Of a DNA stretch of 64,000 nt, positions 1 through 34,003 are shown piece by piece; positions within the stretch are counted from its first letter, which is position 1; every line of letters starts with the position of its first letter. The translations under genes were made by a program, and so were the position numbers. The notes beneath the pieces were generated by a model, which worked only from the letters and a program-made list of their open reading frames with translations, searched no databases and had not been told where the DNA came from. This DNA is from Methylocella sp. (GTDB taxonomy: Bacteria > Pseudomonadota > Alphaproteobacteria > Rhizobiales > Beijerinckiaceae). The DNA is taken from contig JBBCGG010000001.1 in assembly GCA_037200525.1 (NCBI GenBank), positions 831,526 through 895,525 on the forward strand, written 5' to 3'.

Positions 1-1096
1 AGGCTGCAAGGTCATCATGTCCGCCAGGTGGGTGGCCGATACTGTCCTTCGCGCCGACACGGGAGGCGCGGCGCTCCAGCCCGCACAGCTGAGCGGCGAG
101 CCTACGATGATCGAGCAATTGCACCCGGCGACTGTTAAGGATCGGCAGGAAGCCGCTGAAATAGTCGCTCGTCGTCATTTCGCTGTGGCGGTAGGTGACG
201 CCGTTCTTGCCAAACAGCTCCACAGTGAATCCGGCGCCGTAGCGATCACCCGTCACCTCATGAAGCTCATACGTCTTGAGAGCCTCGCAGAGCTCAATGA
301 CGACCTCTTCAGGACTGAATGGCGGTCTCTTCTCAAGCAGCAGGTCGAGAACCCCGACGTTGTCCTCGACGTGGCCTATCGCCAATGTGAAGCTGTCTTG
401 TCCGCCTCCCGACGGATCAACGTGAGCAACATATGATCTGCCCTTCGCGAACTCGATTTGGGCAACGCCCTTCACTGTGCAGGCGTCGACGATTTCCGGC
501 GAAACATACGATTCCAGGTCGTTTCGGAACTGGCCGCCCCATTCGCTTGCGGCAACCGAGGCATCATCTTCATAGGCTCGGTCGATAACCGACTGCTTGA
601 TCGTCGGATTGAAAAGCTTTGTCGGGCCGTTGGCGACCAAGATCGCCGGGTTGCCGTTGGGGCCAAAGTGCTTCTGGTAGGTGCGCCACATCTCGCCCCG
701 CCTGGCGTGCGGAGAGCCGATGCAGAACAATTGGCCTCCGGTCGTGGCCAAGCTTGGCTTGACTGCGGCGAGGATCTCTTTATCGGGGTTGCGGCTGTCG
801 TCCGACTGCCACATGCTTGCTTCCTCGGCGATAACCGCCACCGCGCTGAAACCGCGGATCGTTCGAAAGGATGCCGGCCGGATTTGGATATCCACGCGGT
901 TCTTTAATGAAATCGTGTCCGCCGTGATGCTCCCAGCCATGGCTGCGAAGCGCGGTATGTCAGTGAAGATGCCCCGCGCGAAGTTCATCAGGGTCTGCGC
1001 TTGCTGCATCGAGGCCGCCAGGATCGGCAGCACCCCGCGCTCGCCAAGCCCCGCCGCGACGCTATCGCGCGCGGGGTTCGCTGTTTCAAAAGCCAT
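1..1096 (-). pseudogene. Phage terminase large subunit, 5'-truncated and running off the left edge
   Basis: The reverse strand reads open from an ATG at 1096 to the window edge (about 365 codons) and matches the later part of a phage large terminase. The frame contains a Walker-B-like segment (VAVIAEEASMW) and a nuclease region with DPSGGGQDSF, GDRYGAGF and, near the edge, SIGHPPGGHDDLA. In this family the Walker A loop comes roughly 30 residues before the GERGVLPILAAS segment. Here that segment lies only 17 residues after the first Met, so Walker A and the N-terminus are missing. I see no Walker A in the 330 bases upstream, which hold the AlpA-like gene. A functional packaging motor is therefore unlikely; this looks like a deletion remnant. 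The terminase identity is well supported by motif order. Confidence 0.72.
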
Positions 1097-1099
1097 CGA

Positions 1100-1357
1100 C
1101 TATACCGCCTCCGAGACAGAGAGTCGGACGCGTTTTAGTTTCCAGGCTTCAATCTCGGCACGCCTAAAATACCAGCGACCATTGATTACGTTTGGTTTCG
1201 GGAAATTTAGATCGGAGTATTCGAGCCATCGCGCAAGGGTGCGTCGGACGATGCCGAATTCCGCCGCAACGACCATGGCAGGTACAAGTTTCTCTGAATT
1301 GTCCTTCGCCAAAATTGCTGACGAGGCACTGCTTAATGATTCCAGTGGCATATTCAT
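1100..1357 (-). CDS. AlpA/excisionase-like helix-turn-helix protein
   Basis: This 85-residue protein has a winged-helix/MerR-like DNA-binding pattern: MVVAAEFGIVRRTLARWLEY, then FPKPNVINGRWYFRRAEIEAW. That order (helix-turn-helix, then a short hairpin with GRWYFRRAEIEAW) is typical of AlpA regulators and phage excisionases, which bind DNA at attachment sites or integrase promoters. It lies between the terminase remnant (3 bases downstream) and the gene ending at 1426, in the same direction, in keeping with a decayed integrative element. It is the only apparently complete recombination-related gene here. It could be an excisionase or a transcription regulator; the sequence does not decide. Confidence 0.7.
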   Translation of the reverse strand: MNMPLESLSSASSAILAKDNSEKLVPAMVVAAEFGIVRRTLARWLEYSDLNFPKPNVINGRWYFRRAEIEAWKLKRVRLSVSEAV

Positions 1358-1425
1358 TGTGGAGTTCCTGTCGTGACATAACAGGACTTACAATGGCGCG
1401 GAGGCCGCCGATTAGGTACGCTAAG

Positions 1426-2232
1426 CTATGACGATAAGGGCTGTACTTTCTTCAGATGCGCTATGGCGGAGCGAGCAACATGAAGAGGGTCAGTATCTAT
1501 GTGCATTGCGAGGAACACGTTGGTGATGAGATCAAGAAACACGCCGCGCGGATAGCCGGCGCGATCCAGAGCTTTACGAGTCGGCAGTCCAGCGTATGGA
1601 ATCGCTTTGAGGGCTTTCTCTGGTGGGTCAACCACTATCGTCGGCTCCCTCTCGGTTAGCCGTTGATAACTGTAAGCCAAGTGCCTTCCAACACCGTGTG
1701 CGAAGTTATCCCTAGCTCTACCAGCGTCTTGGGATTCTTTTGGGGTGGCCATCGATGCAGCGCGTGCGAGAGGGCGCAAATCCTCCGCCAATCGCCGACG
1801 ATCTATTTCGACGGCGCGAAGCTCATTAGGAAATTGCGTTCGAACGTAGCCGACGTCAAGGAGCACGTAGTCGTCGCGATCTGTCTTGAAGGCTGGAGTA
1901 TCTGCGAGGGCGTCAATCGTCGTTTGATGCATCGTCTCAAGACGAACAGCCAATTGCAGGCATGACCTTCTGGCGTGGCGCGAAGGGCTTTCCAATGCGT
2001 GGGCCAAGGATCCAGCACGTGTTGAAATGCTGGCAAGCTCTTTAACCGCCAAGGTTGTTTCGCACGGTCTAAAAGCTCGACGTGATTTATCTTCGACCAT
2101 TCGCATATGACTTGCGAATAATACCAGATCGTCGATCTCCCGCGCGAGATCGGGCTCTTTATTGGCGCGAATTTTGAGCTTCCCAAACTCTCGAACCAAT
2201 TGACTCCGCAGGTCTCTATTTTCTGTGGCCAT
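1426..2232 (-). CDS. Hypothetical protein of the integrative element
   Basis: This 268-residue protein is not recognised. The ATG at 2232 is preferred because it follows the integrase stop at 2234-2236 directly; the open frame continues upstream to 2364 but would overlap the integrase. The product is soluble, charged and mostly helical in character (NRDLRSQLVREFGKLKIR near the start), with no signal peptide, membrane segment or clear catalytic motif. Its position immediately after the integrase, on the same strand, suggests cargo or accessory function of the element. No function is proposed. Confidence 0.5.
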   Translation of the reverse strand: MATENRDLRSQLVREFGKLKIRANKEPDLAREIDDLVLFASHMRMVEDKSRRAFRPCETTLAVKELASISTRAGSLAHALESPSRHARRSCLQLAVRLETMHQTTIDALADTPAFKTDRDDYVLLDVGYVRTQFPNELRAVEIDRRRLAEDLRPLARAASMATPKESQDAGRARDNFAHGVGRHLAYSYQRLTEREPTIVVDPPEKALKAIPYAGLPTRKALDRAGYPRGVFLDLITNVFLAMHIDTDPLHVARSAIAHLKKVQPLSS

Positions 2233-2233
2233 T

Positions 2234-3454
2234 CTATCCCCGCACGGTGGATAATTCGAGAATATTTCCACTGAGCCTGCTACGCGTGAGCTCCTCGACA
2301 AAGTGCGCCCATGCTTCGACGGCGCTGCGCTGCTCGTCGGCATAATTGAAACGCTGATATACACCGGTAATTCCGCCGAAGGTTCCGCCGGTGTGATTTA
2401 GGAGCTTTTCCGTGACGTGAACGGCGATCCCCATGCGGGCGAGGTTGCTCGCAAACGTCCTTCGAAGGTCATGCAATCTCCAGGGAATCATATCTTTCGG
2501 GAGAAGATCATCGAGGCGCCGCTTGATCAGCGCATAGCCCACCAAGGGATTATCCCCAGAAAATGTGAAAACGAACTCGCTTCCGGCAATCCGGGGAGCT
2601 GTCTTCAGGATCGCGATCGCAGGGTCGGAAAGCGGGATAGTGTGCTCGCGCTTGTTTTTGGCTCGTACGGCGGGGAGGGTCCAGGTCCGCGCGTCAAGGT
2701 CAAGCTCGCTCCACGCTAAGTCGGTTACCTCTGAGCGCCGCTGGCCTGTGAGAATGAGAATTTGGGCGACATGCCCATAAGGCCAACCGATCGCTTCGGC
2801 CGCCTGCGGCTTTTATTTCCTCATCGTTCAGGATTCGGTCGCGGGACTTTTCGGGCGATGGCGAAGTGACGGTCGCGCATGGGGAAATCTCAATTATCCC
2901 TCGTTCGACCGACCACGAGCACAGTTTCTTAAACCAGGCGAGAGCGCGGTTCGCGGCATACGGCGCTCCGCGCTCGATGATATCGTCAAGCAGGCGGTGG
3001 ACGTCCTGCCGCTTAATCTCGGATAGCTTCCGCTTAGGCCAAGCATCAACAATTTCGTTTTTTAATATTCGTTTGACTTCGATAAAGGTCGCCTCTTTCA
3101 ACCTGCGCTTGGCATAGTTCGCCAAGAACGACGCGACGACCTTCTCAATTAGGTCCTGGTCCGCGGGAATGCGCGCGGAGCGACGTGCCTCTTTTTTTTC
3201 GGCCGCGGGGTCTCTGCCATCGGCAACGGCGACCAATGCCCGCCCGGCGAGTTCTCGCGCGGTCTTAAGACCAACCACGGCCACGGTCCTAGAGTCAATT
3301 TCCGGGGGCGCCCCGCAACCCGATATCGAACAGCCCACGAGGCTTGGCCGCTAGGCTGCGAAACGAAGAAAAGGCCTCGGACAGTCCCATCTGCTATCTC
3401 GCGGCGTTTGGGTCCGGGCTTCAGCGTCTCAAGAAACTTAGCAGTAAGCGCCAC
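2234..3454 (-). pseudogene. Tyrosine recombinase (P4-type integrase), two frameshifts
   Basis: Three consecutive reverse-strand frames together encode one integrase with an N-terminal DUF4102-type arm-binding domain. The first piece starts at 3454 with MALTAKFLETLKPGPKRREI and reads to about 3280, where the frame must change to continue with VVGLKTARELAGRALVAVAD. The second piece contains the core-binding domain and breaks near 2800, just after ILNDEEIKAA. The third carries the catalytic domain, including TGQRRSEVTDLAW (first Arg), HDLRRTFASNLARMG (HxxR) and LLNHTGG followed by GVYQRFNY (final Tyr). Both shifts are consistent with single-base indels. Catalytic residues are still visible, so decay is probably recent, but no full-length protein can be made without two frame changes. 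It is the last gene before the element boundary, as usual for integrases next to their attachment site. Confidence 0.85.
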
Positions 3455-3885: not shown

Positions 3886-6228
3886 TTATGTCCTGCCGCG
3901 CCCATAGTCTTGCCGGGGCTGGATGCGATGCAGCGCGGCGACGAGGCAGTCTATGTCCTCGAAAGTGTTGTAGAGCGCAAGCGAAGGCCGCACCGTCGTC
4001 TCGAGCCCGAAGCGGCGCAAAATCGGTTGCGCGCAATGGTGTCCAGCGCGCACGGCTATGCCTTCCCGATCGAGCGCCGCGCCGACATCCTCGCTGCGGC
4101 AGCCATTGAGGACGAACGAGATGACGCCGGCTTTTTCCTTTGCGGTCCCGATGATTTTAAGGCCCGGCAAGCCGAGCAGCCCTTGCGTCGCATAGCCGAG
4201 AAGCTCGTGCTCATAGGCGGCGATGTTTCCCATCCCGATGCGGTCGAGATAGTCGATGGCGGCGCCGAGCCCGACGGCGTCGGCGATGTTGCCGGTGCCC
4301 GCCTCGAAACGCAGGGGCGGACCCTGATAGACCGTCTTCTCGAAGGTGACGTCGGCGATCATATTGCCGCCGCCCTGCCAAGGCGGCATCGCCGCCAAAA
4401 CCTCCGGCTTGCCGTAAAGAACGCCGATGCCGGTCGGACCGAACACTTTGTGGCCCGAGAAGGCGTAAAAATCGCAATCGAGCGTCTGGACATTGACAGG
4501 CATGTGCGAGACGGCCTGAGCGCCATCGACCAGCACGCAGGCCCCGTGGCGATGCGCTATCGCAACCATCTCCTGCGCCGGAGTCACCGTGCCGAGCGCG
4601 TTCGAGACCTGCGGCAAGGAGACGAGCCGCGTGCGCGGCCCGAGCAGCTTGGTATATTCATCGAGCAAAATCTGGCCGCTGTCGTCGACCGGAGCGACGC
4701 GCAAAACAGCGCCGGTTTCGGCGCACAGCATCTGCCAGGGCACGATATTGGCGTGATGTTCGAGCCAGGTGATGACAATTTCGTCGCCCTCACGGACGTT
4801 GCGGACTCCCCACGCCTTCGCGACGAGGTTGATCGCCTCGGTCGCGCCGCGCGCGAAGACGATGTCGTTTGGCGAGCTTGCGCCAAGGAATCTGCGGACT
4901 TTTTCGCGCGCCGCCTCATAGGCGTCGGTGGATCGCGCGGCGAGCGCATGCGCGCCTCTGTGGATGTTCGAGTTTTCGGTCTCGTAGAACTGCGCGAGGC
5001 GGTCGATCACCGCCTGCGGCTTTTGCGTCGTCGCGGCGTTGTCGAGCCAAATCAGCGGCTTGCCATGAACCTGCTGGCGCAGAATCGGGAAATCGCGCTT
5101 GATCGCATAGGCGTCGAAGGCTCGGGTTCCAGAGACGAGGTCCGGCGTGAGGAGCGGCTTAAGTTCGGGCGCGACCGGCGCGAAAAAAGAATGCTGGGTC
5201 GGGGCGTTGGCGGCGGCGGGCGCCGCGGCGGTCTGCGTCTCGTTTAGAAAATACAAGGATTCGCCCGGAACGGCGGGATATCCGCCGGGCGAGGATTTCT
5301 GACTAAATCCGGACGGCGAGGCCGCCGCGCCCAACAGACTCACATCGCCAACGCCGTGGGGGCGTAGGTCCGTCTCGGTCGGGTAGTTTGTCGAAGCGAA
5401 CGCCGGATGCTGCTCGATGGAAGAGCCGGGAACTTCAGCCGCAACTGGAGCGCTCCCTCGAACCCCTGGTGGACCGGCGTGAGTTGGAGGCGCGGTCACG
5501 CTCTGCGCCGGGGCCGAGGGCGACGGCGGCGCGAACGCCAATCCGGCTTCTTTGAGGAATGACAGGGATGTTTCCGGCGGCTTCGGCGAGCCCATGGGGA
5601 CAGAGCCATGCGAAAACCCCGCGGGAAAAGAAGGCGCGGGAGACAAGCCGCCGGCAGGCGCGCTGCTATGGGAAAATCCCGAAGGAAATGTGGACGGCGT
5701 GAGTGACGTCACGTCGCCAAGGCCCTGCACCAGCGCGAGGAGCGCCTTCTCGCGCAAATGGGCTCGCGGGTGCGGGAGGTCGGGGCCTTCTTCCGGCGCA
5801 AGCCCAACGGAAGCGGCGAACGATTCCGGCGTTGTCGTTACGGCGGGCGAATCCGCCGCGGCGGCTGCGTGTCCGGCGGCAGGCGCGTGCTTGATCGGCG
5901 CTCCAGCGGTTCCCGCGGTTACGCCCGGCAATTCTGTGACAAAAGGAACAGACTGCGCGCCCGGAATGCTCGTCCCCGGCGCTGCAACCACCGCGCCGAT
6001 AGTCCCCGGCGCTGACGTCGGCGGGATCGGCAGACGATCCTGCACCATGAAATTGGCCAGAGCCTGGGGATCGACCATCTGCCCCGGCGCAGCGTTGAAG
6101 AACGAGTTCGCCATCCGCGCGATCAATCCGGGATCGATGACGGCAGGCCCCTGTCCCCCGTATTGCGGAGCCGCCGGAGCGGCGATGGGAGCCGTTGCCG
6201 CCGCTTGCTTCGGATCAGGCGTACTCAT
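3886..6228 (-). CDS. SufS-like cysteine desulfurase with long disordered N-terminal arm (Family 2A encapsulin cargo)
   Basis: This 780-residue protein has two parts. Residues about 370-775 form a class II (SufS-type) PLP cysteine desulfurase: the PLP Lys is K594 in SGHKVFGPTG and the persulfide Cys is C733 in RAGHHCAQP, with the usual LDNAATTQKP and SNIHRGAH segments. The enzyme takes sulfur from cysteine, leaving alanine. Residues 1-365 are an Ala/Pro/Ser/Gly-rich arm that ordinary SufS (about 410 residues) lacks. The arm has three GFS repeats (FPSGFSHSSAPAGG at 181, FPAGFSHGSVPMGS at 201, SPSGFSQKSSPGGY at 304), two SLxFL motifs (SLSFLKEAGLAF at 221, SLYFLNETQ at 324) and a predicted helix near IDPGLIARMANSFF. 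Such arms are known to load desulfurases into Family 2A encapsulins, and the shell gene lies directly upstream with a 14-base overlap, so the pair is translationally coupled. No other SUF genes are nearby, which argues for a dedicated encapsulated role instead of general Fe-S assembly. Confidence 0.9.
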   Translation of the reverse strand: MSTPDPKQAAATAPIAAPAAPQYGGQGPAVIDPGLIARMANSFFNAAPGQMVDPQALANFMVQDRLPIPPTSAPGTIGAVVAAPGTSIPGAQSVPFVTELPGVTAGTAGAPIKHAPAAGHAAAAADSPAVTTTPESFAASVGLAPEEGPDLPHPRAHLREKALLALVQGLGDVTSLTPSTFPSGFSHSSAPAGGLSPAPSFPAGFSHGSVPMGSPKPPETSLSFLKEAGLAFAPPSPSAPAQSVTAPPTHAGPPGVRGSAPVAAEVPGSSIEQHPAFASTNYPTETDLRPHGVGDVSLLGAAASPSGFSQKSSPGGYPAVPGESLYFLNETQTAAAPAAANAPTQHSFFAPVAPELKPLLTPDLVSGTRAFDAYAIKRDFPILRQQVHGKPLIWLDNAATTQKPQAVIDRLAQFYETENSNIHRGAHALAARSTDAYEAAREKVRRFLGASSPNDIVFARGATEAINLVAKAWGVRNVREGDEIVITWLEHHANIVPWQMLCAETGAVLRVAPVDDSGQILLDEYTKLLGPRTRLVSLPQVSNALGTVTPAQEMVAIAHRHGACVLVDGAQAVSHMPVNVQTLDCDFYAFSGHKVFGPTGIGVLYGKPEVLAAMPPWQGGGNMIADVTFEKTVYQGPPLRFEAGTGNIADAVGLGAAIDYLDRIGMGNIAAYEHELLGYATQGLLGLPGLKIIGTAKEKAGVISFVLNGCRSEDVGAALDREGIAVRAGHHCAQPILRRFGLETTVRPSLALYNTFEDIDCLVAALHRIQPRQDYGRGRT

Positions 6229-7156
6229 GATAATGCCCCACCTCGACGTTCTCGAGCACCCCGAGCGCGTCGGGGGTGAGGATCGCCGACGAGCAGTAGA
6301 GCGAGATCAGGTAGGACGCGATCGCCTTGCGATTGATTCCCATGAATCGAACCGAAAGGCTTGGCGTGACTTCGCCTGGGACGCCTGGCTGGAAGAGGCC
6401 GACGACGCCCTGTTTCCGTTCGCCGGTGCGCAAAAGCAGAATGTCGGTGGTGCCGCCGCCATCGGGGCCAGCTGCGATCTTCAGCTTGTCGCTTGGAACC
6501 AGCGGAAGGCCGCGCCAAGTCAAGAACGGCGTGCCGAACAGATTGATCGTTGGCGGCGGCACGCCACGGCGCGTGCATTCCCGGCCGAAGGCGGCGATGG
6601 CGCGCGGATGGGCGAGGAAGAAGGCGGGTTCTTTCCAGACGCGGGCGATCAGCTCATCGAGATCATCGGGCGTCGGCGGACCGCGCCGCGTGCTGATCCG
6701 CATCGCCGGAGAGGAATTCGGCAGCAGACCGTACTCTGGATTATTGATGAGCTCGCTTTCCTGCCGCTCCTTGACCTTCTCGATCAGCAGCCGCAGCTGC
6801 TCCTGGATCTGGTCATAGGGCTGATTGTAGAGATCGGAAACGCGGGTCTGCACGTCGAGGACAGTGGTGACTGCGTTGAGGAAGTATTCGCGCGGCGCAG
6901 TCTCGTAGTCGACGAAGGTCTCCGGCAGGTCGCTATCGCGCTCCCGACTCGGGCTGCATTCGACGTCGCCATCGCCTTCGGTGTCCTTGACGCGGTTTAG
7001 CCGATAAATGCCGGCTTCGACAGGCACCCAGGGAAGGAAAGAAACGAGCCAGCGCGGGGTAATTCCCGACCATTGCGCCCGTGTTTTCGTGGCGTTGGCA
7101 AGCTGACGCGCAGCCGGTTCGCTCAGAGTTCTGCGGCCCTCGGGTTCGTCGACCAT
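6215..7156 (-). CDS. Family 2A encapsulin shell protein (SrpI-like)
   Basis: This 313-residue protein matches the HK97-fold encapsulins of Family 2A. Visible family features are the N-terminal LSEPAARQLANATKTRAQWS segment, the ITPRWLVSFLPWVPVEAGIY stretch, a long central helix (VSDLYNQPYDQIQEQLRLLI) and the C-terminal SVRFMGINRKAIASYLISLY run. The length leaves no room for the cyclic-nucleotide-binding domain that defines Family 2B. The ATG at 7156 has an AAGGAG ribosome-binding site seven bases upstream. The downstream desulfurase gene overlaps its stop. Family 2A shells are icosahedral compartments housing a cysteine desulfurase and linked to sulfur metabolism and storage; that role is inferred here from homology and gene order. 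An IS element ends about 160 bases upstream and may affect its promoter. Confidence 0.9.
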   Translation of the reverse strand: MVDEPEGRRTLSEPAARQLANATKTRAQWSGITPRWLVSFLPWVPVEAGIYRLNRVKDTEGDGDVECSPSRERDSDLPETFVDYETAPREYFLNAVTTVLDVQTRVSDLYNQPYDQIQEQLRLLIEKVKERQESELINNPEYGLLPNSSPAMRISTRRGPPTPDDLDELIARVWKEPAFFLAHPRAIAAFGRECTRRGVPPPTINLFGTPFLTWRGLPLVPSDKLKIAAGPDGGGTTDILLLRTGERKQGVVGLFQPGVPGEVTPSLSVRFMGINRKAIASYLISLYCSSAILTPDALGVLENVEVGHYHEYA

Positions 7157-7314
7157 CTAACAGCTCCTTGTCTAGAATCGCCTGATCTCTAGCTGAAGCT
7201 GATGTAGCACTTCTTGCGTAGAATATTCTCCTTTATTTGAGTTTACTGCGAAAAATGATGAGTCTACAAATTCTATCAATTTTCGACGCTGAAAACGTTC
7301 GCTGCGACAGTCTA
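7157..7314. other. Encapsulin upstream region, cut short by an IS element
   Basis: About 158 bases separate the encapsulin start from the IS target TA. The stretch is AT-richer than its surroundings and must hold any native encapsulin promoter left after the insertion. A TATTCT-like hexamer on the reverse strand (near 7225) could be a -10, but I see no convincing -35. Confidence 0.3.
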
Positions 7315-7331
7315 GGCAGTAGTGACGAATT
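7315..7331 (+). repeat. Left terminal inverted repeat of the IS
   Basis: GGCAGTAGTGACGAATT; its partner at 8164-8180, read on the other strand, is GGCCGTTGTGACGAATT (15 of 17 identical). Flanked outside by TA. Confidence 0.85.
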
Positions 7332-8099
7332 ACCTGAGCATGATAGCAATAGCGGCGAGCAATACGAAGCCTCGGTAGTTTGCGAGGAGCTTGTCGTATC
7401 GGGTTGCGACGCGCCGGAACTGCTTCAGTTTATTGAAGAAACGCTCGACGAGATTGCGCTCCTTGTAGAGCGCCTTGTCGTAGGGGAGCGGCGCGCGGCG
7501 ATTGGATTTTGATGGGATCACCGGCTCAGCCTCACGCATAAGAACAGCCTTGCGCAAGTGATTGGCGTCATAACCTTTATCGGCGATGATCGCATCGGCC
7601 GCAAAGCCTTCGATCAGGGCGTGCGCTTTTGTGATGTCGTTGCGCTGCCCAGGTCCGAGAAGGAGCCGAACGGGGTTGCCGAGCGCGTCTGTCGCGGCGT
7701 GGATTTTGGTGCTCAAACCACCGCGAGAGCGGCCCAGGCCTTGGGCATCCGCCCCCCTTTGGCGATCCTTGCGCCGGCCGCGTGCTGATGGGCGCGCACG
7801 ATTGTTGAGTCGATCATCAGCCATTCGAGATCGGCCTCGGCGGTGAATGCCTCAAGAAATCCGTCCAAGGCGCCGCGCTCGATCCAGCGATAGTAGCGGC
7901 GTTTCACCGCCTGATGGTCGCCGAAGCGTTCGGGCAGATCGCGCCAGCGGCCGCCCGAGCGGGCCATCCATAACAGCGCGTCGACGAAGCGTCGATTGTC
8001 GCAGCGCGGCCCGCGCTGGCCGGCTCTTCCGCCTGGCACAAGATCACAAAGCCGCTCCCATTGATCGTCTCGCAGCGCATCGACATCCCGAATCATCAA
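7330..8099 (-). CDS. IS5-family transposase, two frames joined by programmed frameshift
   Basis: The first frame (8099 to 7713) encodes the N-terminal DUF4096-type domain (DQWERLCDLVPGG; LLWMARSGGRWRDLPERFG; YRWIERG) and the first catalytic Asp in LEWLMIDSTIVRAHQHAAG. The second frame (7824 to 7330) carries RGGLSTKIHAATDALGNPVR, the second Asp in AIIADKGYDA, and the catalytic Glu in the YKERNLVERFFNKLK signature, completing the DDE triad. A run reading AAAGGGGGG on the coding strand at 7752-7760 sits in the overlap and is a good slippage site for producing the fused transposase, as is standard in this group. The stop lies inside the left terminal repeat region. Confidence 0.87.
7752..7760 (-). 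other. Slippery site for transposase frameshifting
   Basis: The coding strand reads AAAGGGGGG within the overlap of the two transposase frames. The upstream frame continues as AKGGRMPKAW, while the downstream frame reads RGADAQGLGRSRGG over the same bases. Homopolymer slippage here would join them. Confidence 0.6.
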
Positions 8100-8393
8100 G
8101 GCTGATCTCCAAAAATCAGCCTTGAATCATGGAAAGATCCTCGCGAGAATCCCCCAAACGCCGAATTCGTCACAACGGCCTAGTTGGCGGGTTCTTTATA
8201 GTTTTTGTGAACACGAGCGCGCGCAAGCCCGTTTGACCGCCGGCTGAGATGCGCTTCTCAACTATAAACGCTCCAAACCAAAGCAGCCGCCTGACCAGAA
8301 GCGAGCGGCGAGCGCTGGCAAGATGGCCTAAGCAACCAGGATCGCCTTATAAGCAAAAGGCGGCCAAGTTTTTGTGCGGCGCAACCTTCCTGC

Positions 8394-25966: not shown

Positions 25967-28303
25967 ATGACGAAGCACGACGTTCCAGGCATTGGCAATT
26001 ATTACGGCCCCGCGGGCGGATGGGGGGCGCTCCATGCGGTAGCAAAAGCGATTAAGGAGCAATCCGCCGTTGGAACGGACGTGCGCGCGCTTCTCAAGGC
26101 CAATCAGCCGACAGGGTTTGACTGCCCCGGCTGCGCTTGGCCTGATCCAAATCATCGATCCTCATTTGAGTTTTGCGAGAACGGCGCCAAGGCCGTCGCG
26201 TGGGAGGCGACGGCAAAGCGCACGCTGCCCGAATTTTTCATAAGCCATACGGTATCCGAACTCTGGACTTGGACGGATTTCGAGCTGGAAGGAGCGGGAC
26301 GGCTTACCCATCCGATGGTCTATGATCGTCAGAGCGACCGCTATGTCGCAATCGAATGGGACGAAGCATTCCGGCGCATAGGAGAGGGGCTAAAAGCTAT
26401 CCCCGACCCCGACGCGGTGGAGTTTTACACCTCTGGACGCGCCTCGAACGAGGCTGCTTTTCTGTATCAGCTTTTCGTTCGCGAATTCGGCACCAATAAT
26501 TTCCCCGATTGCTCGAACATGTGCCACGAGGCGACGAGCGTTGGTCTGCCGGAATCGGTCGGCGTTGGCAAAGGCACGGTTACGCTCAAGGACTTTGATC
26601 ATTGCGATGCGATCTTCTGCATCGGACATAATCCGGGAACCAACCACCCTCGAATGCTCGCGACGCTGCGGGAGGCGGCAAAGCGAAACGTTCCAATCGT
26701 CGTCTTCAACCCTCTGCGCGAGCGCGGACTTGAGCGCTTTGCTTCGCCGCAAAGTCCGTTTGAAATGTTAACGATGCGCTCCACGGACATCGCCACCGCA
26801 TATTATCAGGTCAAGGTGGGCGGCGACGCCGGCCTCCTGAAAGGGATGATGAAGGCTGTCCTCGCCACCGATGCGGAATCTCTGGAGTCCGGCGGAGAAG
26901 GAGTTCTCGATCGCGCGTTCATCGCCGAGCATACGACCGGATTCGATGCTCTTGTTGCCGATCTCGAAAAGACAACTTGGGAGGAGATCGAACAGAGCTC
27001 TGGATTAAAGCGGGAGGATATCGAGGCGGCTGCGGCCGTCTACGTCAAGGCCGAACGCGTCATCCTCTGCTATGGGATGGGCATAACCCAGCATCGGCGC
27101 GGCACCTCCAATGTCCAGCAGCTCGCCAATCTTCTGCTGCTGAGAGGCAATATCGGCCGCGAGGGCGCCGGGATCTGTCCGTTGCGCGGCCATTCCAATG
27201 TGCAGGGCGATCGCACCGTTGGGATCACGGAAATTCCGACGGAGGCTTTTTTGAGCCAGCTCGACAGCGTGTTCGACATAAAATCTCCGCGAGGCAAAGG
27301 ACACAACGCCGTCGAGGCCGTCGAGGCCATCAGCGAAGGCAGATCGAAAGCGATGATCTGCCTTGGCGGCAATCTGGCGGTCGCCATGCCCGATCCCGAC
27401 ATCACTTTCCCGGCGATGCGAAAGCTTGACCTCGTGGTGCATATCGCGACCAAGCTGAATCGCAGTCACCTCCTCACCGCAAAAGAATCCTTCATTCTGC
27501 CGTGCCTCGGCCGGACGGAGATCGACGTCCAAGAGAGCGGGCCGCAGGCGGTCACCGTCGAAGATTCCATGTCGATGGTGCACGCGTCTCGCGGCGGATT
27601 GAAGCCCGCGTCGGAGCATCTGCGCTCCGAACCCGCGATTGTCGCCGGCCTTGCGAAAGCTGCTCTTCGCCATACCAAAGTGGATTGGGACCATTTGGTT
27701 GCGGACTACGGACGCATCCGCGACAAGATCGAAGCAGTGTTTTCCGATTTTGCTGGATATAACGAGAAGATTCTCAGTCCTGGCGGCTTTCGCCTCCGCG
27801 TTGCATCTTCCGAGCGGCAATGGCTGACGGATTCGGGCAAGGCGAATTTTCTCGTTGTCAAAGGCGTCGCCGAAGATCCGCCTGCGACGGTGGAGGACAG
27901 CCTCACGCTGACGACGATCCGCAGCCACGACCAATATAATACGACGATCTACAGCCTCAACGATCGCTATCGCGGCGTCACCGGCCGGCGAGACGTCATC
28001 TTTGTGAGCCCGAAGGATTTGGAGGATCGCGGCCTCAAACACGGCGATAAAGTGGATTTGGAAGCCTTGGACGAGCCCGGAACGAACATGGAGCCGCGTG
28101 CGCTGCGCGGCTTCACGGCGGTGTCCTACAACATCGCCGAAGGTTCGATCGCCGCCTATTATCCCGAGGGGAACGTATTGGTGGCGCTACATTCCTTTGA
28201 TCCGAAAAGCGGCACGCCAGCTTATAAGTCCATTCCGGTGACGCTTAGGGCGGCAAATGACGCGCACCGAAGCGATGCTCTCCCGAGATTGGCTCAGCTT
28301 TAG
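25967..28303 (+). CDS. YdeP/FdhF-family molybdopterin oxidoreductase
   Basis: This 778-residue protein is a full-length member of the formate-dehydrogenase-alpha-like YdeP family. The N-terminal GFDCPGCAWPDPNHRSSFEF segment has the family Cys pair, but there is no standard CxxCxxxC [4Fe-4S] motif of formate dehydrogenases. Molybdopterin-guanine-dinucleotide contacts are visible (YTSGRASNEAAFLYQ; NMCHEATSVGLPESVG; IFCIGHNPGTNHPRM; YGMGITQHRRGTSNVQQLAN), as is the C-terminal cap domain (TIRSHDQYNTTIYSLNDRYR). Such proteins probably use a bis-MGD cofactor; YdeP is linked to acid resistance in enterics, and the physiological substrate is not established. There is no accessory subunit gene beside it. 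Neighbouring epsC starts 357 bases downstream. Confidence 0.87.
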   Translation: MTKHDVPGIGNYYGPAGGWGALHAVAKAIKEQSAVGTDVRALLKANQPTGFDCPGCAWPDPNHRSSFEFCENGAKAVAWEATAKRTLPEFFISHTVSELWTWTDFELEGAGRLTHPMVYDRQSDRYVAIEWDEAFRRIGEGLKAIPDPDAVEFYTSGRASNEAAFLYQLFVREFGTNNFPDCSNMCHEATSVGLPESVGVGKGTVTLKDFDHCDAIFCIGHNPGTNHPRMLATLREAAKRNVPIVVFNPLRERGLERFASPQSPFEMLTMRSTDIATAYYQVKVGGDAGLLKGMMKAVLATDAESLESGGEGVLDRAFIAEHTTGFDALVADLEKTTWEEIEQSSGLKREDIEAAAAVYVKAERVILCYGMGITQHRRGTSNVQQLANLLLLRGNIGREGAGICPLRGHSNVQGDRTVGITEIPTEAFLSQLDSVFDIKSPRGKGHNAVEAVEAISEGRSKAMICLGGNLAVAMPDPDITFPAMRKLDLVVHIATKLNRSHLLTAKESFILPCLGRTEIDVQESGPQAVTVEDSMSMVHASRGGLKPASEHLRSEPAIVAGLAKAALRHTKVDWDHLVADYGRIRDKIEAVFSDFAGYNEKILSPGGFRLRVASSERQWLTDSGKANFLVVKGVAEDPPATVEDSLTLTTIRSHDQYNTTIYSLNDRYRGVTGRRDVIFVSPKDLEDRGLKHGDKVDLEALDEPGTNMEPRALRGFTAVSYNIAEGSIAAYYPEGNVLVALHSFDPKSGTPAYKSIPVTLRAANDAHRSDALPRLAQL

Positions 28304-28660: not shown

Positions 28661-29605
28661 ATGAACCCAAGGATCAAAAAGCTCAGCGCATGCGCAGGCG
28701 CCAGCCCCTACTGGGATATCGAAGGAGTAGTCGCGGATCTGCGCAATTTGCGATTGAAGGATCACGAGAGGCGAGAAGGGCCCTGCAAACTACCGTCCCG
28801 CAAGGCGTTGATCGGCATCACGGAGGGCCTTAGCGCCGCTCTATTCCCCAACCGTCTGGGACTGCCCGACCTAACCGGCGAGGGGGTCGATTTCTTTGTC
28901 GGACACACGCTCGATGTGACCTTGAGGGAATTGCTCAAGCAGATTCGCCTTGAGTTCGAATTCAGGTCGGGCCGCGACGACATCAGCAAAAGCGATTTCG
29001 ACCGGGCGATCAAAGTCACTCATGCCTTCGCCAGCGAGTTGCCGCGAGTGCGCTGTTTGCTGGAAACCGACATACGCGCGGCCTACGACGGCGACCCGGC
29101 GGCGCACAGCATCGACGAAGTGCTGATTTGCTACCCGGGCGTCACGGCGATGATTCATCACCGGCTCGCTCATGTTCTCTATGGGCTTGATGCGCCGCTG
29201 TTGTCGCGCATGATCGCCGAAATCGCGCATTCAACGACAGGGATCGACATTCATCCCGGCGCCCAGATCAGCGAGAGCTTTTTCATCGACCACGGCACCG
29301 GGGTCGTGATCGGGGAAACGACGGTCATCGGCCAGCGGGTGCGTCTTTATCAGGCCGTTACGCTGGGGGCCAAGCGCTTTCCGACGGACGATCATGGCGC
29401 ATTGATGAAGGGCGGCGCCCGCCATCCGATCGTCGAAGACGACGTCGTGATCTACGCCGGCGCGACTATACTTGGCCGCATCACCATCGGCCGCGGCTCC
29501 TCCATCGGCGGCAACGTCTGGTTGACGCGGAGCGTGCCTCCCGGCAGCACGATCTCGCAGGCGCACGTGCGCAGCGAACATTTCCATGACGGCGGCGGCA
29601 TTTGA
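28661..29605 (+). CDS. epsC: Serine O-acetyltransferase, EpsC type
   Basis: This 314-residue enzyme acetylates serine with acetyl-CoA to give O-acetylserine, the carbon acceptor for sulfide in cysteine synthesis. The C-terminal left-handed beta-helix has hexapeptide repeats with the catalytic His region (TGIDIHPGAQISESFFIDHG, TGVVIGETTVIGQRVRLYQA, VTLGAKRFP). The long N-terminal helical domain of about 185 residues (ITEGLSAALFPNRLG; VLICYPGVTAMIHHRLAHVL) is the EpsC subgroup type, longer than CysE. It is convergent with cysI, 39 bases away. EpsC-like genes are often found beside Family 2A encapsulin operons; here the encapsulin pair is 21 kb away. Confidence 0.92.
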   Translation: MNPRIKKLSACAGASPYWDIEGVVADLRNLRLKDHERREGPCKLPSRKALIGITEGLSAALFPNRLGLPDLTGEGVDFFVGHTLDVTLRELLKQIRLEFEFRSGRDDISKSDFDRAIKVTHAFASELPRVRCLLETDIRAAYDGDPAAHSIDEVLICYPGVTAMIHHRLAHVLYGLDAPLLSRMIAEIAHSTTGIDIHPGAQISESFFIDHGTGVVIGETTVIGQRVRLYQAVTLGAKRFPTDDHGALMKGGARHPIVEDDVVIYAGATILGRITIGRGSSIGGNVWLTRSVPPGSTISQAHVRSEHFHDGGGI

Positions 29606-29643
29606 GTTGTTTGCTGCGTATCCGCTTCAGGAAGGCGCGGCGC

Positions 29644-31380
29644 TCAGTCGTTGAACTCGCGCCCCGCCCGCACTTCTTTCACGTAGCCGGCGCGGATGGT
29701 GAAGTCGCCGAAGTGCTCGCCCGCGCGCCTGTCACGGGCATAATGGGCGGCGACCTCGGCGATCGCCGCCAGAATGGAGTCCTCGCCGATATTTTCGAGA
29801 TACATTTTGTTCAGGCGCTCGCCGTGAAAGCCGCCGCCGAAATAGAGATTGTATTTGCCGGGGGCGCGGCCGGTAAGGCCGATTTCCGCAACATAGGGCC
29901 GCGCGCAGCCATTGGGGCAGCCAGTCATGCGAATGGTGATCGGCTCCTTCTCCAGCGCGTTGTCGGCGAGGATCTTTTCGATCTTGGTGACGAGCGAGGG
30001 CAGATAGCGTTCGCTCTCCGCCATCGCGAGGCCGCAGGTCGGCAGTGCGACGCAAGCCATGGAATTTAAGCGCAAAGCGCTCTGCTTATTGCGTTGATCC
30101 AGCCCATATGCTTTCAGCAGCGCTGCAATCTTCGGACGCGCTTTTGCCGGAATATCGGCGATCACGAGATTCTGGTTGGGCGTCAGCCGGAATGAGCCGG
30201 CATGAACCTCGGCGATGGCGCGTAGCCCGTCGAGAAGCGCAAAACCCTCGCGATTGACGATACGACCGTTCTCGATGAACAGAGTGAAATGGTGGCGGCC
30301 ATCCTTGCCCTTAGCCCAGCCGAGCGCGTCGCCATTGGTCGTGAAGTGGAAAGGCCGCGCCGGCTCAAAGACGAAACCCATTCGTGTCTCGATGTCCTGC
30401 TTGACCCAATCCAGCCCAAGATCGTCGATCGTATATTTGAAACGGGCGTGAGCGCGGTCGACGCGATCGCCATGGTCGCGCTGGACGCCGAGCACGGCGT
30501 CGGCGGCGGCGAGCAGTCCGTCTTTGGGAATGAATCCAATCACGTCGCCAAGCCGCGGATATGTCTTGGGCGCTTGGTCCGTGCGACCCATGCCGCCGCC
30601 GATCACGACATTATAGCCTTCGAGGCCATCACTTCCTGTAATGGCGATGAAGCCGAGATCCTGCGTATAGACGTCGATGTCATTGCTTGGCGGAATGACC
30701 AGACCGATTTTGAACTTTCGCGGCAGATACGTCGGGCCATAGAACGGCTCTTCCGGTTCGGACGTCGCCACGCGTTCCTCGCCGTACCAGATTTCGTGAT
30801 AGGCGCGCATGTTCGGAATGACATGAGCGCTGACCTGCTTGGCAGCATGATAAACTTTGGCGTGAAGCGCGGAAAGCTTCGGATTGATCGAGCACATGAC
30901 GCCGCGCACATCATCGCCGCAGGCGGAGATCGTATCGATCAGCGCTTCGTGCAAACCCTGGATGGTCGTCTTCAGATTATTCTTCAGCACCCAATGAAAT
31001 TGAAACGTCTGCCGCGTCGTGACGCGCAGCGAACCAGCGCCGTAAGCCCGCGCGAGTTCGTCTAGCTTTCGCCATTGCGCGGCCGTGCAAACGCCGCCGG
31101 GGAGACGCAGGCGGATGAGGAACTGATAAGCAGGCTCAAGCTTCTGGCGGCGGCGCTCGTCGCGCAGGTCCCGATCGTCCTGCACATAGATGCCATGAAA
31201 CTTCATCAGCTTGTTGTTGTCCTCGCCGGAGACGGCGCCGGTGATCGCGTCGAGGAGCCCCTCTTTGATCGTGCCGCGCAAATAATCGCTGCGCGCCTTC
31301 ATCCGCTCATCGGGACTTAGCTTGTCAAGCGGCTGCGAGATATCGCGGCTGCGATCCGGATGAGGCAAGGTCTTGGTCAT
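29644..31380 (-). CDS. cysI: Assimilatory sulfite reductase hemoprotein subunit
   Basis: This 578-residue siroheme/[4Fe-4S] protein reduces sulfite to sulfide with six electrons. The cluster and siroheme ligands are present: ACVALPTCGLA (Cx5C) and MTGCPNGCARP (Cx3C). Typical substrate-site segments appear (RVTTRQTFQFHWVLKNNLK; GDDVRGVMCSINP). The ATG at 31380 gives the normal N-terminus; the open frame upstream overlaps cysJ. It follows cysJ with 10 bases between, so the two are one operon. Together they feed sulfide to cysteine synthesis with epsC nearby. Confidence 0.95.
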   Translation of the reverse strand: MTKTLPHPDRSRDISQPLDKLSPDERMKARSDYLRGTIKEGLLDAITGAVSGEDNNKLMKFHGIYVQDDRDLRDERRRQKLEPAYQFLIRLRLPGGVCTAAQWRKLDELARAYGAGSLRVTTRQTFQFHWVLKNNLKTTIQGLHEALIDTISACGDDVRGVMCSINPKLSALHAKVYHAAKQVSAHVIPNMRAYHEIWYGEERVATSEPEEPFYGPTYLPRKFKIGLVIPPSNDIDVYTQDLGFIAITGSDGLEGYNVVIGGGMGRTDQAPKTYPRLGDVIGFIPKDGLLAAADAVLGVQRDHGDRVDRAHARFKYTIDDLGLDWVKQDIETRMGFVFEPARPFHFTTNGDALGWAKGKDGRHHFTLFIENGRIVNREGFALLDGLRAIAEVHAGSFRLTPNQNLVIADIPAKARPKIAALLKAYGLDQRNKQSALRLNSMACVALPTCGLAMAESERYLPSLVTKIEKILADNALEKEPITIRMTGCPNGCARPYVAEIGLTGRAPGKYNLYFGGGFHGERLNKMYLENIGEDSILAAIAEVAAHYARDRRAGEHFGDFTIRAGYVKEVRAGREFND

Positions 31381-31390
31381 CTCGTCGTCC

Positions 31391-33259
31391 TCAATAGACG
31401 TCGCGCTGATAGCGGTGGTCGCGTTGCAGGCCGCGCACATATTCATCCGCGGCGTCGCGGCCAAGGCTGCCATGGGCTTCTACAACGGCGATCAGAGCAG
31501 CGTGGACGTCTGGGGCGAGCCGGGCGGCGTCGCCGCAGACATAGACATGCGCGCCTTCTTCGAGCCAGGCGAAGACCTCGCGGCCATGCTCCAGCAATCT
31601 GTGCTGAACATATGCCTTTTCTGCGCCGTCGCGCGAGAAGGCGACATCCATGCGGCTCAACGCTTTGTCTTTAAGGTAGGCCTGCCATTCGGTCTGGTAA
31701 AGGAAATCGGTGCGAAAGTTGCGTTCGCCAAAGAATAGCCAGGAACGGCCCCGCGCGCCCCGCGCTTCGCGCTCTTGCATAAAGGCGCGATAGGGCGCGA
31801 CGCCGGTGCCGGCCCCGATCATGATGATCGCAATGTCGTCCGCTGGCAGACGAAAATGCGGATTGGCCTGGACATAGACAGGCGCGAGACTATCCGGCTC
31901 GCCGTGCTTGGCGAAATAACCCGACGCCACGCCCGCGCGGACTTCGCCATTCAGGATATAGCGCACCGTCGAGACTGTGAGATGCGCCTCATCCGGGTTC
32001 GCCGCGAGGCTCGAGGCGATCGAGTAAAGGCGCGGCTGCAATGGCCGCAAGCCAGCGACGAAAGTTTGAGGCTCCAGCCCCGGAACCGGGAACCGCCGGA
32101 TAAGATCGACAATGTGGTGCTCGTGGAGAAAGACGGCGCGTTCCTCCGCGCGTTCTCCCAGCAGCTCTTTCAAGGCGCTCGCGCCCGTCAATTCCGCCCA
32201 ATGCTCGAGGAAACGGGGCGTGGCGGCGGCGATCTCGTATCTCCGCTCCAGAGCTTCTCCGAGCGGTGCCTGACCATCCTTGAGCTTTAGCGGCGTCGCC
32301 GGATCAAATCCGAGGGTCGCCGCGATTGTCGCGACCAGCGCGGGATCGTTGCGCGGCGCAATGCCGAGCGCGTCGCCGGGCTCGAAGCCGAGGCCCGAGC
32401 CTGCAAGAGACAATTCGATGTGACGCGTCTCTTTGGAGGAGCCGCGCCCAGTCAAGACGATATTGCCGATGATCGTCGCCTGAAACGGATTGCGCTTGTC
32501 AAAACCGCCGCGTCGCGGCTCCGCCGCGGTCAGCGCCGCAGCTACGGTTTTTTCAGCGCTCTGGCCGCGATCAAGAGCAACGCGCGCCAGCGCGTCGGCG
32601 GTCCAGGCCGCGGCGGGGTCGTCATAATCAACATCGCAATCAACGCGCGGCAGAAGCCGGATCGCGCCAAGCTCCTCAAAGCGCCGGTCCAGACGCTTGC
32701 CCGCCTCGCAGAAGCGCTCGTAGGTAGAATCGCCAAGCGCCAGCACCCCGTAGCGCACTCCGGTCAGCGAGGGCGCTTTGCGTCCCTCAATGAACTCGAA
32801 GAAATCCACAGCCGGCTGCGGCGGGTCGCCTTCGCCATAAGTGCTCACGATGATAAGGAGGTCCTGCTCGTCCTTCAGTCGGCGCGGCTTGTAATCGCCC
32901 ATGTCGGCGATGACCGCCTCGAGGCCTAGGGCTTTCGCCTCGGAAGCCGCGGTTCGCGCCAGGGCCGCGCTGTTGCCGGTCTCCGTGCCATAGAGGATTG
33001 TTAGCGTGCGCGCCGCCACAGATTGGGCGGGCGTCGGCGGGATCGGAGTCGTCGCCCCGGACAGCGTGGCCTCCGTCAGGCCGCGCGCGCTCGCAAGGCC
33101 CGCGAAATAGCCGCTCAACCAAAGCGCTTGCCGCGGACTCAATGTCGCAGCTAGAGCGTCGATCTGATCCCATTGCTGCGTGGCGATTAGTTCCGTTCCG
33201 GGAAGCTTAGTTGGGTCCCAACTTTGCAAATTCGCTTTCCTGTTTAGCGTCCTCGTCAT
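31391..33259 (-). CDS. cysJ: Sulfite reductase flavoprotein subunit
   Basis: This protein (622 residues from the chosen start) is a diflavin reductase passing NADPH electrons to CysI. The order is flavodoxin domain (LTILYGTETGNSAALARTAA; VSTYGEGDPPQPA; GVLALGDSTYERFCEAG), then FAD-binding (QPRLYSIASSLAANPDEAHL) and NADPH-binding domain (IMIGAGTGVAPYRAFMQERE; LFFGERNFRTDFLY; VYVCGDAARLAPDVH). It ends in the family's RDVY C-terminus. ATG 33259 gives an N-terminus of typical length before the SPRQALWLSGYFAGL helix; an in-frame ATG at 33355 (MDLASILDNP) cannot be excluded and neither has a strong ribosome-binding site. Confidence 0.93.
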   Translation of the reverse strand: MTRTLNRKANLQSWDPTKLPGTELIATQQWDQIDALAATLSPRQALWLSGYFAGLASARGLTEATLSGATTPIPPTPAQSVAARTLTILYGTETGNSAALARTAASEAKALGLEAVIADMGDYKPRRLKDEQDLLIIVSTYGEGDPPQPAVDFFEFIEGRKAPSLTGVRYGVLALGDSTYERFCEAGKRLDRRFEELGAIRLLPRVDCDVDYDDPAAAWTADALARVALDRGQSAEKTVAAALTAAEPRRGGFDKRNPFQATIIGNIVLTGRGSSKETRHIELSLAGSGLGFEPGDALGIAPRNDPALVATIAATLGFDPATPLKLKDGQAPLGEALERRYEIAAATPRFLEHWAELTGASALKELLGERAEERAVFLHEHHIVDLIRRFPVPGLEPQTFVAGLRPLQPRLYSIASSLAANPDEAHLTVSTVRYILNGEVRAGVASGYFAKHGEPDSLAPVYVQANPHFRLPADDIAIIMIGAGTGVAPYRAFMQEREARGARGRSWLFFGERNFRTDFLYQTEWQAYLKDKALSRMDVAFSRDGAEKAYVQHRLLEHGREVFAWLEEGAHVYVCGDAARLAPDVHAALIAVVEAHGSLGRDAADEYVRGLQRDHRYQRDVY

Positions 33260-34003
33260 GTAATTATCTGCAAACCTCGGATTTATTTTGTCAGTTTCCG
33301 CCAGCCGCCACAACCCAAGGTCGCGAGGATTGTCCAGGATGCTTGCTAAATCCATCGTACAGAATTCAAACCGCGATAAACTTGCGGTAAATCGACGGGA
33401 ATTGCGCGGCAGAGGGCCCAATGTCTTGGAAACAAGCGGATTGACGGACTTGTCAATTTTGCGGCGACTCTATAACTTCCAGCTTAGGCTTGGGGGATCC
33501 TTGGTAAATATAAGCTAATTCAACGAGTTGCCACGTGATCCAATATGACTGCGCGCTCTTTTGATTAAGGTCAGGTAAGACAAATGCGGAGCGAGCGCGT
33601 CAGGAAGTTTCGCTGAGCACACCACAAAAGGCGACGCGTGGACAGTTTTTCAAATTTCTCCGATGAAACAGCTAATGCGACAAATTGGCTTCAAATGACA
33701 CTGCTGAGCACAATCGGACAGGCATTTTGTAACCGGGTCCTGCGCGCGCCGCTGCTCGCCGCCGCAACCCTTGTATTCACGATGCCGGAGAAAATGGCCT
33801 TCGAAATCAAGCGCTGCGCCCGATCATCTGCTGGCGCTCCGCTGCCGGATGCATAGCGCGGATCGCAATGGAAGGCTGCCGGTAGCGCACGCTGTCGAAC
33901 GGCTTGGCCTGCCGATCGGCCGAACCAAGCCGGCGCTCACAACGCTGAATCGCCCTGCGCGCCTAATCAAGACAATCGACAAGAAATTCGAACGGGAGGA
34001 AAT
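33260..34003. other. Long divergent intergenic region between cysJ and the lactate permease gene
   Basis: 744 bases (about 650 if cysJ starts at 33355). Several short open frames occur on both strands, but none shows a ribosome-binding site or recognisable product. It must hold the control regions of both the sulfite reductase operon and the lactate permease gene. A TTGACA hexamer lies on the reverse strand near 33445 without a clear -10 partner. No named operator is evident. Confidence 0.4.

Follow-up and report, generated by a model that had tools for sequence, protein, structure and literature searches.

The chromosome of a Methylocella species (assembly GCA_037200525.1, contig JBBCGG010000001.1) carries, in the 64,000-nucleotide stretch analysed here (the window), two overlapping minus-strand genes that very probably form a family 2A encapsulin operon, with a rough probability of 0.85. 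In such an operon, a protein shell is loaded with an arm-bearing cysteine desulfurase, and sulfur would be stored inside. The two genes, their family membership, their overlap, the motifs of the arm, the near-universal pairing of shell and cargo, and a promoter element are all established in this work. The operon itself is an ordinary one, and the compartment is one more host record for a known family. The 41-bp promoter element before the shell gene matters more than the compartment, as it is a new clue to the control of such shells.

Shell, cargo desulfurase and loading arm

6215..7156, minus strand: family 2A encapsulin shell protein, 313 aa (matches to NF041162, PF19307 and PDB shells)
3886..6228, minus strand: cargo cysteine desulfurase, 780 aa (NF041166), its start overlapping the shell stop by 14 nt
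3919..5118, minus strand: SufS-type catalytic domain (TIGR01979; best PDB match 8kg1), with K594 in SGHK and C732 in RAGHHCAQP
5119..6228, minus strand: Ala/Pro-rich N-terminal arm, about residues 1-370, a predicted encapsulation domain (no family match before residue 323; arm loading has a published precedent in PMC8049743)
6097..6126, minus strand: arm motif 1, LIARMANSFF (published form LARLANEFFS; comparison with the motif of PMC8049743 and alignment)
5548..5568, minus strand: arm motif 2, first and diverged copy, SLSFLKE (pattern search and alignment)
5239..5262, minus strand: arm motif 2, second copy, ESLYFLNE (published form AASPYYFLDG; comparison with the motif of PMC8049743 and alignment)

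The shell protein scores 508.9 bits against the family 2A model NF041162 (cut-off 380), and its residues 11-312 run in a single stretch over positions 1-295 of the 295 in the model. The SrpI-like model PF19307 gives 362 bits with a cut-off of 22.8. The family 2B model is also over its cut-off (440.6 against 400), in two stretches, the best of which takes in positions 205-450 of 450. As the protein has 313 residues and the 2A model covers it end to end, the cyclic-nucleotide-binding insertion that defines family 2B is absent. Five distinct PDB shell sequences (8t6r, 6x8m, 9ksl, 8wol and 8won) match it with E values of at most 1.4e-116; residues 8-312 and 10-312 align to the solved SrpI-type shells 8t6r (6.9e-136) and 6x8m (6.5e-130). 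From such matches, an HK97 fold is predicted for the product. The whole genome, a single contig of 5,244,354 bases, holds this one shell gene.

The downstream protein gives 847.3 bits with NF041166, the model of the family 2A cargo cysteine desulfurase (cut-off 800), from its residue 323 onwards and over model positions 193-623 of 623. With the SufS model TIGR01979, it gives 575.2 bits (cut-off 475.1). Judged as sequence matches, those of shell and cargo are beyond chance. K594 and C732 are invariant across the seven aligned cargo rows, which hold at most six distinct cargos; by analogy with SufS, they are presumably the pyridoxal phosphate lysine and the persulfide cysteine. A sequence-only reading of this DNA had proposed a family 2A shell with a desulfurase cargo, no cyclic-nucleotide domain, a shell stop overlapping the cargo start, and a SufS-like enzyme with a 365-residue extra arm. 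It was right on all of these: both family models are over their cut-offs, 14 nt are shared (6215-6228), and the arm takes up about 365-370 residues, since residues from about 371 to 770 form the SufS-type domain.

In Synechococcus elongatus, the arm loads the cargo by means of two motifs (PMC8049743), and both were found in the arm of the window, as LIARMANSFF and SLYFLNE, along with the diverged SLSFLKE. Two copies of motif 2 are also present in the other six aligned rows, which come from five genomes (rows L002 and L102 look identical), and a pattern search finds a single copy in a sixth genome, G009 (L103). The catalytic motif is present in 78 loci, and a wider set of 67 distinct arms was drawn from these after setting aside 11 that were duplicates or had no domain start. 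Of these arms, 62 have motif 1 and 54 have one or more motif-2-like strings; such strings average 1.10 per arm against 0.034 in shuffles, and the loose pattern used counts just one of the two copies in the arm of the window. The span from motif 1 to the domain is 334 residues in the window and, among the 62, is longer in one (349) and equal in another.

The pairing of shell and cargo was followed through relatives in named genomes, where the best 80 loci of 572 confirmed relatives were considered. In 73 of the 80, the desulfurase gene comes after that of the shell, on the same strand and no more than 2.6 kb away; the contigs of the other seven end too soon. None of the 73 loci with enough room has a shell without a following desulfurase.

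Phage remnants lie to the left of the operon and end near the cargo gene (window 2-3454), with a terminase-like open reading frame (ORF) at 2-1096 and integrase pieces at 2234-3454. A tape-measure-like ORF lies further left, outside the window (L097 6126-8072). Taken with the adjoining terminase and integrase fragments, it might suggest that the shell gene is a capsid gene of the same prophage. This reading is contradicted and hardly credible, as no PHROGs family matches the shell, the shell passes the encapsulin model, and six relatives from the genus hold the same pair amid other neighbours. Those six genomes have no flanking gene in common with the genome of the window except carB in two (G001 and G011; ORFs of at least 90 aa were compared). 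The pair thus appears to be mobile or maintained independently of its neighbours.

By analogy with relatives, from which assembly, loading, catalysis and storage are all deduced, the operon would work as follows. The shell protein would assemble into a small HK97-fold shell, while translation of the desulfurase would be coupled to that of the shell through the overlapping start. The arm would draw the cargo in, its motifs binding the inner face of the shell. The enclosed SufS-type domain would then convert cysteine to alanine, and the sulfur released would be kept in the shell as a store for later use. The promoter element, described below, may tie expression of the pair to sulfur or cysteine status.

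As the cargo domain passes the SufS model, it could be asked if it is instead the main desulfurase of the cell for Fe-S clusters. A profile search of the genome found a separate, unbroken SufS at 4897003-4898199, lying 0.2 and 2.4 kb from two SufB/SufD-type matches; the SUF locus thus defined spans 4.897-4.903 Mb, and the cargo gene is not clustered with sufB/sufD. Similarly, among 13 genomes of the genus searched, a SufS other than the cargo is over the cut-off in 12, and SufB/D-type matches occur in all 13, including five without a shell. In G009 the cargo is the only SufS match over the cut-off, because the SufS of the SUF locus is read there in two pieces. These pieces (G009:C1:1729489-1730686) lie in different frames, each below the cut-off, and the encapsulin desulfurase of that genome is intact. 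A main Fe-S role is therefore contradicted for the genome of the window and very improbable; the encapsulin desulfurase is not the housekeeping enzyme. The sequence-only reading had reached the same conclusion from an absence of SUF and ISC genes in the window. The conclusion stands on the separate SufS elsewhere in the genome, while its original ground is weak, because the window is 64 kb of a 5.24-Mb genome. As for the absence itself, the only SufS match in the window is the cargo, no SufB/D match falls there, and the single IscU/NifU-type match of the genome is at 2.54 Mb, so the claim holds as far as these profile matches go, the window not having been scanned gene by gene.

A conserved promoter element before the shell gene

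7200..7240, minus strand: 41-bp promoter element, made of the imperfect dyad AGGA-N5-TTCT (7220-7232) and GTGCTACA (7203-7210) (upstream alignment, pattern and matrix searches)

When the 180 bp before the shell gene were aligned for seven genomes of the genus, a conserved island appeared in otherwise diverged DNA. It consists of an A-rich AGAA-N5-TTCT(C), followed by TGCTACA. Of 102 distinct upstream regions, eight match the element as a regular expression; all eight are from this genus, in which a ninth genome, G003, has a variant. A shell is present in nine of the 15 genus genomes searched and missing from six, and the element stands before it in all nine. In 74 kb scanned of the genome of the window, the element scores 31.9 and the best other site 9.6.

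A pattern-free count was also made of every 4-base dyad with a spacer of 0-14, using 94 regions from which similar ones had been thinned out and, as control, 60 Markov sets. AGAA-N5-TTCT ranks first of all dyads, in 21 regions against 0.45 expected, although these are not fully independent, because seven come from this genus. The top count of any dyad in the Markov sets was 12, and the same dyad with other spacers counted 0-2. Among 121 regions, same-genome copies included, the perfect dyad is present in 14/14 other rows of the genus, 5/26 rows of the same family, 11/39 named alphaproteobacterial rows and 0/27 beta- and gammaproteobacterial rows. The two rows of the window itself lack the perfect form, their left half being AGGA. 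The dyad is universal in the genus and a minority feature beyond it. A second dyad, TGCC-N4-GGCA (11 of 94 regions), was rejected and read as coding sequence, since its occurrences have a single flank in common, close to where serine acetyltransferase genes end just upstream of the shell.

The element also occurs before some genes for serine O-acetyltransferase (SAT). A score above 12 or a perfect dyad was found upstream of SAT in 8 of 96 loci, which represent five genomes of the family: G001, G006, G013 (with L002), G087 and G023. SAT and shell lie on different contigs in G087, and G023 has no shell match. By leave-one-out, these five SAT sites score 41.6, 35.9, 27.8, 27.3 and 21.1. Within the genus, the element precedes three of the four shell-linked SATs and none of the eight unlinked ones, that of the window included. 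In 2.0 Mb scanned of G001, the shell promoter ranks first (51.2) and the SAT promoter third (27.3). Between them comes a site (28.6) that falls within an acyltransferase-like ORF on the other strand, and the fourth-best site reaches 17.2. As the 28.6 site is taken as chance, a score of about 28 alone is no proof for the SAT site of G001.

The element suggests a shared regulator of shell and SAT. Should TGCTACA contain an extended -10, the centre of the dyad would fall near -32, a position that would fit a repressor. The Irr box, an iron control element, was considered as a possible identity of the dyad. A tentative proposal, at slightly less than even odds, is that Beijerinckiaceae family 2A operons are under a conserved operator, AGAA-N5-TTCT (with TGCTACA in the genus), that a looser dyad serves some other Alphaproteobacteria, that some members of the family also have this operator before SAT, and that a cysteine- or sulfur-sensing regulator switches both. 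If true, cysteine making and sulfur storage would be switched together by one regulator. Being shared by shell and SAT genes, the 41-bp element is a direct handle, or bait, for finding such a regulator and for learning the signal that fills or empties the store. A title-level search found no paper on encapsulin regulation, which is no proof of its absence in print, and no regulator for proteobacterial family 2A systems was met in the literature considered.

Serine acetyltransferase and the surroundings of the operon

28661..29605, plus strand: SAT (NF041874, EpsC; 162.2 bits, cut-off 150), 21.5 kb from the encapsulin pair
29644..33421, minus strand: cysI and cysJ, assimilatory sulfite reductase (TIGR02041 and TIGR01931 over cut-off), context only
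7312..8183, minus strand: insertion sequence with two overlapping transposase ORFs and 20-nt ends 90% complementary, context only

The sulfur genes at 28661-33421, namely SAT, cysI and cysJ, had been overlooked by the sequence-only reading. SATs of this kind often accompany family 2A shells in other genomes. A full-length SAT is found in the shell locus in 53 of the best 80 of 572 relatives. Among 298 genomes of the family, drawn evenly from a larger group (full-length SAT at 280 bits or more, 2A shell at 430 bits or more), it occurs in 44 of 50 with the shell and 11 of 248 without, the kinship of the genomes being ignored. Within the genus, the counts are nine of nine with a shell and two of six without.

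In a SAT tree of 84 rows, built by a quick method, the SAT of the window belongs to a six-member clade of unlinked SATs, which includes two from the shell-less genomes G002 and G014. The nearest outsiders are shell-linked SATs of Methylumidiphilus, Methylococcaceae, Methylophilaceae, Competibacteraceae and an unclassified proteobacterium. The labels linked and unlinked rest on short-locus content, so that at least L143, L144 and L153 count as unlinked although a shell lies 1.9-2.5 kb away from them; this does not touch the clade that holds the SAT of the window. From its position among unlinked SATs of the genus, the SAT of the window is kin to the shell companion but has its own history. The promoter element is absent before it, with a best score of -8.5. 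The idea that it is the moved partner of the operon was therefore rejected, on its clade and the missing element; at 21.5 kb, it is probably context rather than partner.

Some further features of this neighbourhood were observed. The cysI and cysJ frames, taken from the longest ORFs, overlap by 83 nt. A molybdopterin oxidoreductase of the FdhF/YdeP family lies at 25967-28303 on the plus strand (TIGR01701 over cut-off), and related ORFs occur near SAT in two genus genomes (G009 and G008). In the insertion sequence, the transposase frames correspond to a DUF4096 part and a DDE part, and reading by frameshift is probable.

Several observations weigh against a regulated, sulfur-storing operon in the window. 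Its promoter element has the lowest leave-one-out score among the nine (31.9 against 38.5-57.9), and the insertion sequence, with ends at 7312-7331 and 8164-8183, lies 155 bp upstream of the shell ATG. The element is also missing before the shell-linked SAT of G005 and all eight unlinked SATs of the genus. Moreover, no SAT lies beside the operon, and none of the five rhodanese matches in the genome is near it.

The lack of a nearby rhodanese also bears on another role for the enzyme, in which a regulated desulfurase would, with no storage, either hand persulfide sulfur to a specific external acceptor or clear excess cysteine. Such a role was proposed in PMC8346489 and PMC8049743; the enclosed enzyme is about seven times faster (PMC8049743), and in many operons a SAT partner hints at cysteine turnover. 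Against this role stand the distant rhodaneses and later work, cited as sulfur storage (PMC12407261). It is an unlikely alternative, and sulfur storage in a loaded shell is preferred.

Hosts and comparison with known systems

The sequence-only reading had also suggested a special link to C1 metabolism, and this found no support. Methylotrophy itself is plausible, because four matches to the PQQ alcohol/methanol dehydrogenase are over the cut-off in the genome. The particulate methane monooxygenase family PF02461 has no match in the genome of the window (G000), while 10 of 15 genus genomes have one. A match to PF02332 was also missing from the genome of the window, but the controls were silent too, and the absence is not established. 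The shell does not track PF02461 within the genus (six of nine shell-bearing genomes against four of six shell-lacking ones), and the link was rejected as unsupported. Among the best 80 of 572 relatives, shell hosts include the methane oxidisers Methylocapsa, Methylosinus and Methylocystis, as well as Rhodopseudomonas, Azospirillum, Pseudomonas, Azotobacter, Thauera and Acidobacteria. A title-level search met no paper whose title concerns encapsulins of methanotrophs or methylotrophs, which does not prove their absence from print.

A 2021 survey counted 1281 family 2A desulfurase operons in 12 phyla, 813 of them in Proteobacteria, with SAT and rhodanese as the most enriched companions (PMC8346489). 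Compared with the operons of that survey, the window has its SAT 21.5 kb away and in a separate clade, and no rhodanese match nearby. Against EpsC-type SATs (NF041874), the SAT of the window passes the model and is close to shell-linked SATs, whereas the members of its clade in the genus have no link to a shell and no promoter element before them. The closest described system is SrpI-CyD of Synechococcus elongatus (PMC8049743; PDB 6x8m). The two are alike in shell family, in the adjacent SufS-type cargo and in an arm with both motifs. They differ in that the arm of the window is about 365-370 residues long against 225 in S. elongatus, holds the second motif twice with one copy diverged, and belongs to a pair without an adjoining SAT.

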